Below the pieces are notes generated by a model. It was not told where the DNA came from. It did no database searches and saw only the letters and a list, made by a program, of their open reading frames with translations. Source: Rhodocyclales bacterium (GTDB taxonomy: Bacteria; Pseudomonadota; Gammaproteobacteria; Burkholderiales; Rhodocyclaceae). Taken from it: a DNA stretch of 64,000 nucleotides. Where the stretch lies: positions 1-64,000 of the forward strand of contig JACOUN010000008.1 of assembly GCA_016177805.1 (NCBI GenBank). Direction: 5' to 3'. Positions 13,852-21,360 of this stretch are shown here, piece by piece; the stretch's first letter is position 1, and every line of letters starts with the position of its first letter. A program made the translations under genes and the position numbers.

Positions 13852-15315
13852 TCAACGCGGCAGCAGGCTCTCGCCCATCAGGAACTCATCCACCGCGCGC
13901 GCGCACTGCCGCCCTTCGCGTATCGCCCACACCACCAGCGACTGGCCACGCCGTACGTCACCGGCGGCATACACCTTCGGCACATTGGTGGCGTAGCAGC
14001 CATCACCGTCGGTGGTGGCATTGGCGTTGCCGCGCTTGTCCTTGTCCACGCCGAAGGCCTCCAGCACGCTGCCGACCGGGTTGGTAAAGCCCATCGCGAG
14101 GAGCACCAGGTCGGCCTTGATCTGGAACTCGGAGCCAGGCACCTCGCTCATGCGCCCGTCCTTCCAGTCGAGACGCACGCCCTTGAGCGCGGTGACCCTG
14201 CCGTTGTTGCCGATCAGGGCCTTGGTTGCGACCGCGAAATCGCGCTCGCAGCCTTCTTCGTGCGAGCTGGAGGTGCGCAGCTTGATCGGCCAGTATGGCC
14301 AGGTCAGCGCCTTGTCCTCTTCCTTGGGCGGCATCGGCAGCAGTTCGAACTGGGTCACCGAAGCTGCGCCATGGCGGTTGGAAGTGCCGACGCAGTCCGA
14401 GCCGGTGTCACCACCGCCGATCACCACCACGTGCTTGCCCTTGGCCGAAATCGGGTTGCGCGCGCCGCCCGCGACTTCCTTGTTCTGCGGAATCAGGAAT
14501 TCCAGCGCGAAATGCACGCCCGCCAGCTCGCGCCCCGGCACCGGCAGATCACGCGGCACTTCCGCGCCGCCGCACAGCACCACCGCGTCGAAATCCGCCA
14601 GCAGCGTTTCGGCGCTGACCACTTCGGTAGCGTCGTTGGTGATGCCAGTGGGAATATCCTTGCTCCCGACCAGCACGCCGGTACGAAAGCGCACGCCTTC
14701 ATCCTGCATCTGCTCGACGCGGCGGTCGATCAAGCGCTTTTCCATCTTGAAATCGGGAATACCGAAACGCAGCAGACCACCGACGCGCTCGTTCTTCTCG
14801 AACACCGTCACATCGTGACCGGCGCGCGCGAGTTGCTGCGCGGCGGCCATGCCGGCCGGTCCGGAGCCGACGACGGCCACGCTCTTGCCGGTCTTGCGCG
14901 TCGGCGGCTGGGGGTGCACCCAGCCTTCTTCCCAGCCCTTGTCGATGATCGCGTGCTCGATCGACTTGATACCGACCGGAGCGTTGTCAATGTTGAGGGT
15001 ACAGGCCGCCTCGCACGGCGCCGGGCAGATGCGGCCGGTGAACTCCGGGAAGTTGTTGGTCGACTGCAGCACCGCCAGCGCTTCGCGCCACTGGTTGCGA
15101 TAAACAAGATCGTTCCAGTCCGGAATGATGTTGTTCACCGGGCAACCGTTGTTGCAGAACGGGATGCCGCAATCCATGCAGCGCGCGCCCTGAACGGCGG
15201 TCTGTTCATCGGTCAGCCGCACGATGAACTCACGGTAGTTCTTCAAGCGTTGCGCAACGGGCTGATAGCTCTCGGACAGACGCTGATATTCAAGAAATCC
15301 GGTGGGCTTGCCCAT
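13852..15315 (-). CDS. gltD: Glutamate synthase small (beta) subunit
   Basis: Encodes 487 residues. The N terminus carries the Cys clusters [17 protein letters not shown] and CPAPCEAAC for [4Fe-4S] centres. Two dinucleotide-binding folds follow: [21 protein letters not shown] for FAD and [13 protein letters not shown] for NADPH. It passes electrons from NADPH to the large subunit for glutamate synthesis from glutamine and 2-oxoglutarate. The start lies 2 bp after the gltB stop, so both subunits are co-translated. Confidence 0.97.
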
Positions 15316-15317
15316 TT

Positions 15318-19991
<4,674 letters not shown>

Positions 19992-20089
19992 CACGCTCTT
20001 CCTCAACACAACTTGTTGACCAGACGGTGCAGCCACGGGACATGCGGCAATCACCGCAAGCAAAAACCGCACCGAAACAGTGCGCGCGC

Positions 20090-20132
20090 AAAAAAAACCG
20101 GGGCTGCCTCGTCCGGCGGCAACCTACCGGTT
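20090..20132 (-). terminator. Strong intrinsic terminator in gltB leader
   Basis: Read on the minus strand, AACCGG-TA-GGTTGCC, a 9-nt loop, then GGCAGCC-CCGGTT form a long stem with a 2-nt bulge, directly followed by eight T (20097-20090). This is the best intrinsic terminator in the window. It lies 103 bp past the dgt stop and 98 bp before the gltB start, and downstream of the sigma70-like promoter at 20174-20202. Confidence 0.8.
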
Positions 20133-20173
20133 CGCTATTGCGGCCACAGTCTTTAGTTTTGGGCGGGTTGACG

Positions 20174-20202
20174 AATATACCTGTGTAAAACCAGCGATTC
20201 AA
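20174..20202 (-). promoter_or_regulatory. Sigma70-like promoter upstream of gltB
   Basis: On the minus strand, TTGAAT (20202-20197) and TATATT (20179-20174) are separated by exactly 17 bp. Four of six and five of six bases match the sigma70 consensus. Transcription would start near 20167 and meet the terminator at 20132-20090 before reaching gltB. I see no comparable promoter between that terminator and gltB. Confidence 0.65.
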
Positions 20203-20235: not shown

Positions 20236-21360
20236 TCAATGGTTTTCGCTTACTTCGAAGAGCCGGCGGTACTCTTTGGTCGCGTATCTATCGGTCATGC
20301 CGGCGATGTAGTCAGCGACGCTGCGCGGCTTGTCGATGTTTGCGCGACGCTGATACTGCGGCGGCAACAGACGCGGATCCGAGAGGAAGGCGCCGAAAAG
20401 TTCAGCAATAATGCGCCGCGCCTTGCTGGTCATGCGCACGACCTGGTAGTGGCGATACAGGTTCTCGTGCAAGAAGTGCTTCAACTCGCGCATGTCCCGC
20501 GCAAAGCCGTCGGAGTGCGTTACCAGGCGCGGTGCCTGACGCACATCCGCGAGAGTTTCGATTCCGGCCGAGGCGATGTTGGCGCGAGTCTGTTCGATAA
20601 GATCGAGCGCCATCGCATTGATCATGCCGCGCACGGTTTCGTGAATCAGGCGCCGCCCGCTCACGCCCGCCCAGCGTGTTTCGACCCCCCGCCGCGCGGC
20701 GGAAAAAATCGCGACGTTCTCCAGTTGCTCTAGCGTCAACAAGCCCGAACGCAAGCCATCGTCGATGTCGTGGTTGTCGTAGGCGACTTCGTCGGCTAGA
20801 TTCGTCAGCTGCGCCTCAAGCGTCGGCTGCCCACCCTCGATGAAACGCCGTCCCAGCTCACCGAGGCGTTCGGCATTCGCCCGCGAGCAGTGCTTGAGTA
20901 TCCCCTCGCGCGCCTCGTGAGTCAGGTTCAAGCCGTCGAAAGCCGCGTAATGCTCCTCGAGTTCATCCACGGTGCGCAATGACTGGATGTTGTGTTCAAA
21001 CCCGCCAAAATCCTTCATGCAGGCGTTGAGCGCATCCTGTCCGGCGTGCCCGAACGGCGTATGACCGACATCATGGGCCAGCGCGATGGCCTCAGCCAGA
21101 TCTTCATTGAGATTCAGTGCCCTGGCGATGCTGCGGGAAATCTGCGCGACTTCGATGGTGTGCGTGAGCCGGGTACGAAACAGATCGCCTTCATGATTGA
21201 CGAACACCTGGGTCTTGTACTCCAGCCGTCTGAATGCGGTGGAGTGCACGATGCGGTCACGATCGCGCTGATACTCACCTCTGGACTGCGGCGGGGACTC
21301 CTCATGGCGGCGTCCCAGCGACTGGGTCTCATGCGCCGCATAGGTCGCGAGCGCACTCAT
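20236..21360 (-). CDS. dgt: Deoxyguanosinetriphosphate triphosphohydrolase-like protein
   Basis: Encodes 374 residues of the HD phosphohydrolase superfamily. The metal-binding HD motif is visible as [11 protein letters not shown] with [16 protein letters not shown]. Arg-rich N-terminal segments ([28 protein letters not shown]) match the type-2 Dgt family, which cleaves dNTPs to deoxynucleosides and triphosphate. Its start overlaps the aroB stop by ATGA, and it ends the pil-aro run. Confidence 0.94.

Follow-up and report, generated by a model that had tools for sequence, protein, structure and literature searches.

A promoter and an intrinsic terminator conserved ahead of gltB in Rhodocyclaceae suggest control of glutamate synthase by premature termination

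We analysed a 64,000-nucleotide stretch of DNA (the window) from a Rhodocyclales bacterium, which belongs to the MAG-rich part of the GTDB family containing Azoarcus, Thauera, Aromatoleum, and Zoogloea. On the minus strand of the window, the genes aroK, aroB, dgt, gltB, and gltD follow one another in this order. The features of the region are as follows.

13852..15315, minus strand: gltD, small subunit, in the same operon as gltB and adjacent to it on the same strand; taken by us to be gltD from knowledge of the family
15318..19991, minus strand: gltB, large subunit of glutamate synthase and the presumed target of the regulation; starts with ATG at 19991; its N-terminus shares up to 90% identity with homologues from named Rhodocyclaceae/Zoogloeaceae
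19998..20004, minus strand: gltB ribosome binding site GAGGAAG, of which GAGGA is conserved in most relatives
20059..20073, minus strand: putative sigma54-like element GGTGCGGTTTTTGCT (GG-N10-GC), overlapping the dyad and conserved in near relatives
20068..20084, minus strand: NtrC-type dyad CGCACTGTTTCGGTGCG, which can alternatively be read as a second, weak hairpin resembling a terminator, with TTTTT after it
20090..20132, minus strand: intrinsic terminator with outer helix AACCGG/CCGGTT, inner helix GGTTGCC/GGCAGCC, and eight T; position conserved in relatives
20133..20168, minus strand: untranslated leader ahead of the terminator; site of the covarying hairpin P1 in many relatives, weak or absent in the window
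20174..20179, minus strand: -10 hexamer TATATT, with the transcription start predicted at about 20168-20167
20197..20202, minus strand: -35 hexamer TTGAAT of the gltB promoter; the same motif at 16-18 nt spacing recurs in relatives
20236..21360, minus strand: dgt-like gene upstream, ending 34 nt before the -35 hexamer

A 1607-aa open frame also lies antisense to gltB on the plus strand (15333-20156); it is very probably a codon-bias shadow.

The original prediction for this locus placed a promoter, TTGAAT-N17-TATATT, at 20202-20174 of the minus strand and a long-stem terminator with eight T at 20132-20090, with a gap of 98 nt between the end of the T-run and the gltB ATG. All of these were found exactly as described. 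In the outer helix of the terminator, AACCGG (20132-20127) pairs with CCGGTT (20101-20096), and the T-run occupies 20097-20090. The hairpin had a folding energy of -21.8 kcal/mol (z -3.2), and none of 200 shuffled sequences was equally stable. A simple terminator scan of the window did not list it, and the automatic search picked a weaker second hairpin (20084-20068) as the terminator of the window; the first hairpin was established by separate folding. The terminated RNA is expected to be about 75-80 nt long. As for the promoter, two matches were observed in 12 kb of window sequence and 2.5 +/- 1.5 in shuffled sequence, which is not beyond chance. Since the promoter is unremarkable in the window by itself, the matter was decided by comparison with relatives.

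For this comparison, 80 named gltB loci were used, and more upstream regions were extracted from other genomes of the family, order, and class; the family corresponds to Rhodocyclaceae/Zoogloeaceae in the named records. Requiring ten or more of the 12 positions to match TTGAAT/TATATT, we found the promoter in 99 of the 112 family gltB upstream regions, as against a mean of 2.4 in ten rounds of dinucleotide shuffling; the consensus was derived from the same dataset, and the margin over the shuffles is very large. In L031, TATATT is unchanged and the spacer is mostly different. The promoter together with a downstream intrinsic terminator was found in 91/112 (shuffle mean 0.0), and the other 21 failed the combined test, some of them through the strictness of the stem search. 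These results indicate that the predicted promoter and terminator are both real. Directly downstream of the T-run, the sequence is rich in GC and shows moderate conservation; it could tune termination. The distance from the end of the T-run to the gltB start codon is 28-50 nt in 13 relatives.

The order-level sample of 67 gltB upstream regions, which contains a few family members, gave the promoter in 11 and the promoter with the terminator in one; in L227 and perhaps L225, a terminator overlooked by the strict search was visible by eye. The class-wide search beyond the order yielded no convincing case among 27 readable gltB upstream regions. In other Burkholderiales (L267, L268, L270, and L287), the promoter is recognisable and the terminator is absent, and most of these begin with a TTCGCC-like sequence. 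Because the promoter occurs there without the terminator, the promoter probably came first, and the terminator was added later within the lineage. Some of these four leaders could fold a different hairpin in the place of the terminator.

The immediate upstream neighbour of the pair is dgt in most relatives, and the original prediction offered the alternative that the terminator merely closes the dgt operon, here the aroK-aroB-dgt unit, and that the promoter match arose by chance. The common strand, the distance of only 34 nt from the dgt stop to the -35 hexamer, and the chance-level promoter count in the window all agree with such an origin. However, the promoter is conserved in relatives at the frequency given above, and the pair is retained where dgt is not. 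In the Thauera loci L049 and L058-L060, it stays near gltB, with dgt either hundreds of bases further away or not present within 1.5 kb; in L059 and other Thauera, it is kept despite extra DNA separating dgt from the promoter. Six further family members (L190, L192, L200, L207, L208, and L212) keep the promoter and terminator with no dgt match within 500 nt upstream. Furthermore, GltB of Tolumonas (Aeromonadaceae) nests inside Burkholderiales, and its gene is preceded by TTGAAT-N17-TATATT and a terminator with no dgt match upstream. Synteny and promoter conservation thus refute the alternative, which we regard as highly improbable. The tree position of the Tolumonas protein and the upstream sequence suggest that gltB and the leader were acquired by horizontal transfer, and as the leader is present there without dgt, it appears to travel, and to have moved, together with gltB. 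Burkholderiales-type gltB plus the leader was seen at the Tolumonas loci L101, L102, L106, and L109.

A covariance model (R1) built on the transcribed portion was searched against 121 family genomes, and strong matches were obtained only 5' of gltB. Weak matches away from gltB, where inspected, had no promoter and look like ordinary terminators, and this search revealed no promoter-bearing or extra copy apart from gltB. The restriction of strong matches to gltB favours a cis-acting leader.

The structure of the leader RNA was then considered. Alignment of 34 leaders with MAFFT and RNAalifold recovered only the terminator helix and misaligned P1, and was replaced by an 18-sequence subset. In these 18 relatives, the P1 hairpin covaries: five of its seven pairs were changed on both sides (25 cells, compared with 9.4 in shuffles). 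The leaders are also more stable than shuffled ones (-14.9 vs -12.5 kcal/mol). Their sequence is weakly conserved except for a C-rich stretch near the start, and the 5'-end sequence UUCGCCC/UCCGCC occurs in families without the terminator as well. The window itself shows no evident P1 and is not detected by R1 at E 0.01; it is accordingly assigned to the leader family by position, promoter, terminator, and similarity to its nearest relative (72% at the DNA level over 245 nt).

We looked for the parts of a switch. CCGG motifs lie in the window at 20130-20127 and 20116-20113, as had been predicted, and their mutual pairing had been proposed as a competing structure. When transcripts cut before the 3' arm were folded, the 5' arm of the terminator paired upstream in 52 of 84 leaders, compared with 59 expected from shuffled leaders. 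Since this is below the shuffle expectation, the CCGG/CCGG pairing is not supported as a conserved feature, and a classical attenuator with mutually exclusive hairpins was rejected on the same count. ATG open frames that might encode a leader peptide were scattered, clade-dependent, and absent from many leaders, the test covering ATG starts. Rfam was searched at its gathering cut-offs and also permissively, and neither the window nor 13 relatives gave a match; the best weak hit was che1 (E 0.23), far under its cut-off.

The original prediction saw no better promoter between the terminator and gltB. This statement has to be qualified, as a dyad and sigma54-like element at 20084-20060 had been missed. 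In the window, CGCAC-N7-GTGCG (20084-20068) overlaps GG-N10-GC (20073-20060), and the same overlap just past the terminator is found in 13 relatives. Among 187 gltB upstream regions, YGCAC-N7-GTGCR dyads occur in 33 (0.45 expected) and GG-N10-GC elements in 20 (0.95 expected). The dyad and GG-N10-GC beside the gltB leader resemble NtrC/sigma54 promoters, and the genome of the window encodes rpoN and ntrC. The GG-N10-GC spacing is kept at the gltB element; its -24 reads CGGTGC, unlike the TGGCAC at glnA and glnK of the same genome. At the glnA, glnK, and nitrite-reductase-like genes of this genome, the dyad or dyads lie about 95-180 nt before TGGCAC, whereas at gltB the two overlap. No separate upstream NtrC dyad was found in the 1.5 kb upstream of the window gltB, where the sole dyad overlaps the -24. 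Because of this -24 and the lack of a separate dyad, a working sigma54 promoter at gltB is uncertain, and the site could equally well be an operator or roadblock for NtrC.

Classical pairs of an NtrC dyad and TGGCAC were seen in the same genome at L317 7121/6943 (minus strand), L318 3374/3486 (plus strand), and L319 872 and 904/1000 (plus strand); they precede the glnA-, glnK-, and nitrite-reductase-like genes, identified by eye from translations. At 14 Thauera-type loci (L040, L041, L045, L048, L049, L051, L054, L057-L060, L089, L091, and L100), strong dyads (TGCACC-N5-GGTGCA and close variants) lie between the promoter and the terminator, about 126-160 nt before gltB.

Taken together, the comparative genomics supports an attenuation reading: the promoter and terminator are conserved jointly, they are tied to gltB rather than dgt, and in a number of relatives there is little space for a second promoter. 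We consider it probable, at roughly 0.7, that a native (ancestral) gltB promoter and an intrinsic terminator in the leader exert premature-termination control of gltBD. RNA polymerase would start near 20168, and a large share of polymerases would stop at about 20091 and release the short RNA of 75-80 nt; the gltBD mRNA would come only from those that read through. With 28-50 nt after the T-run in the 13 relatives, there is little or no room for a promoter and a ribosome site, so that the simplest view is transcription of gltB by read-through of the terminator. Glutamate synthase thus appears to be made only when polymerase passes the terminator, which would set, and probably regulate, its output. 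Regulated read-through, with its controller, is the part of the proposal that we infer. With neither a conserved antiterminator nor a conserved leader peptide nor a riboswitch of Rfam found, the candidates for control of read-through would be an elongation factor, an RNA-binding factor, or a fixed termination rate. When nitrogen is limiting, the dyad and sigma54-like element that follow the terminator in the clade of the window may serve to circumvent or adjust this step.

The original prediction also allowed for a separate RNA of about 75-80 nt. If the pair encoded a trans-acting small RNA of this size, most gltB expression would come from the gene's own sigma54-like promoter downstream of the pair, for which the 98 nt past the terminator in the window could provide room. 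A compact RNA bounded by a promoter and an intrinsic terminator of its own would suit such a role, as would the covariation of P1 in many relatives, the excess stability of the leaders, an upstream pairing that does not block the terminator, and the sigma54-like element in the clade of the window. Yet no copy with the promoter turned up elsewhere than at gltB, the 13 relatives leave at most 50 nt from the terminator to gltB, the same promoter precedes gltB in terminator-less Burkholderiales such as L267 and L268, and sigma54-like sites are confined to few lineages (the 20 of 187 above). Under both readings a terminated RNA would be produced; the element, however, invariably accompanies gltB, and we judge a separate small-RNA gene to be unlikely. 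Both functions might be combined, with the terminator attenuating gltB and the released leader acting in trans as a 5'UTR-derived small RNA. This would follow if termination is efficient, and the covariation of P1 suggests that more of the RNA than the terminator is under selection; however, UUCGCCC/UCCGCC near the 5' end also occurs in the terminator-less families, and its conservation need not mean action in trans. Such dual use seems rather improbable. More tentatively still than premature termination itself, the leader may represent a family-wide undescribed RNA element, in which termination is regulated without an antiterminator, leader peptide, or known aptamer, the released leader serves additionally as a small RNA linked to nitrogen, and the same leader is modulated through an NtrC site; we hold this to be possible but doubtful.

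By class, the gltB leader is filed here as a putative premature-termination leader. With the attenuators and premature-termination leaders of biosynthetic operons, it shares a promoter, a short leader, an intrinsic terminator before the start codon, and the cognate gene downstream; it differs from them in that no leader peptide, mutually exclusive antiterminator helix, or known aptamer was found. The gltD (SRC-18-1) motif, a candidate cis-regulatory RNA reported only in Selenomonadales and Veillonellales, likewise lies directly 5' of a glutamate synthase gene and often has a promoter in front (PMC8632094). Compared by description only, that motif belongs to other orders, precedes gltD, and forms a hairpin over the ribosome site, whereas the leader described here precedes gltB and ends in an intrinsic terminator. 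The glutamine riboswitches (glnA RNA and Downstream-peptide) are also short RNAs tied to glutamine/glutamate metabolism and occur occasionally at glutamate synthase genes (PMC8632094); unlike them, the gltB leader is weakly conserved in sequence and had no Rfam match in the window or 13 relatives. In Escherichia coli, gltBDF is reported to be controlled by Lrp, IHF, Crp, and ArgR, which are DNA-binding proteins acting at the promoter, and attenuation is nowhere mentioned in the text of that paper (PMC1784095). The operon is the same, with control by promoter-bound proteins described there and a leader terminator here.

Our literature search, which mostly left subscription papers outside its range, found no report describing an attenuator or a leader RNA at gltB of Rhodocyclaceae. 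Glutamate synthase constitutes half of the main ammonia-assimilation cycle, and members of the family (Azoarcus, Thauera, Zoogloea, and Aromatoleum) are important in wastewater treatment and aromatic degradation. The retention of a terminator between the gltB promoter and its gene across the family points to a layer of nitrogen control different from that of E. coli.
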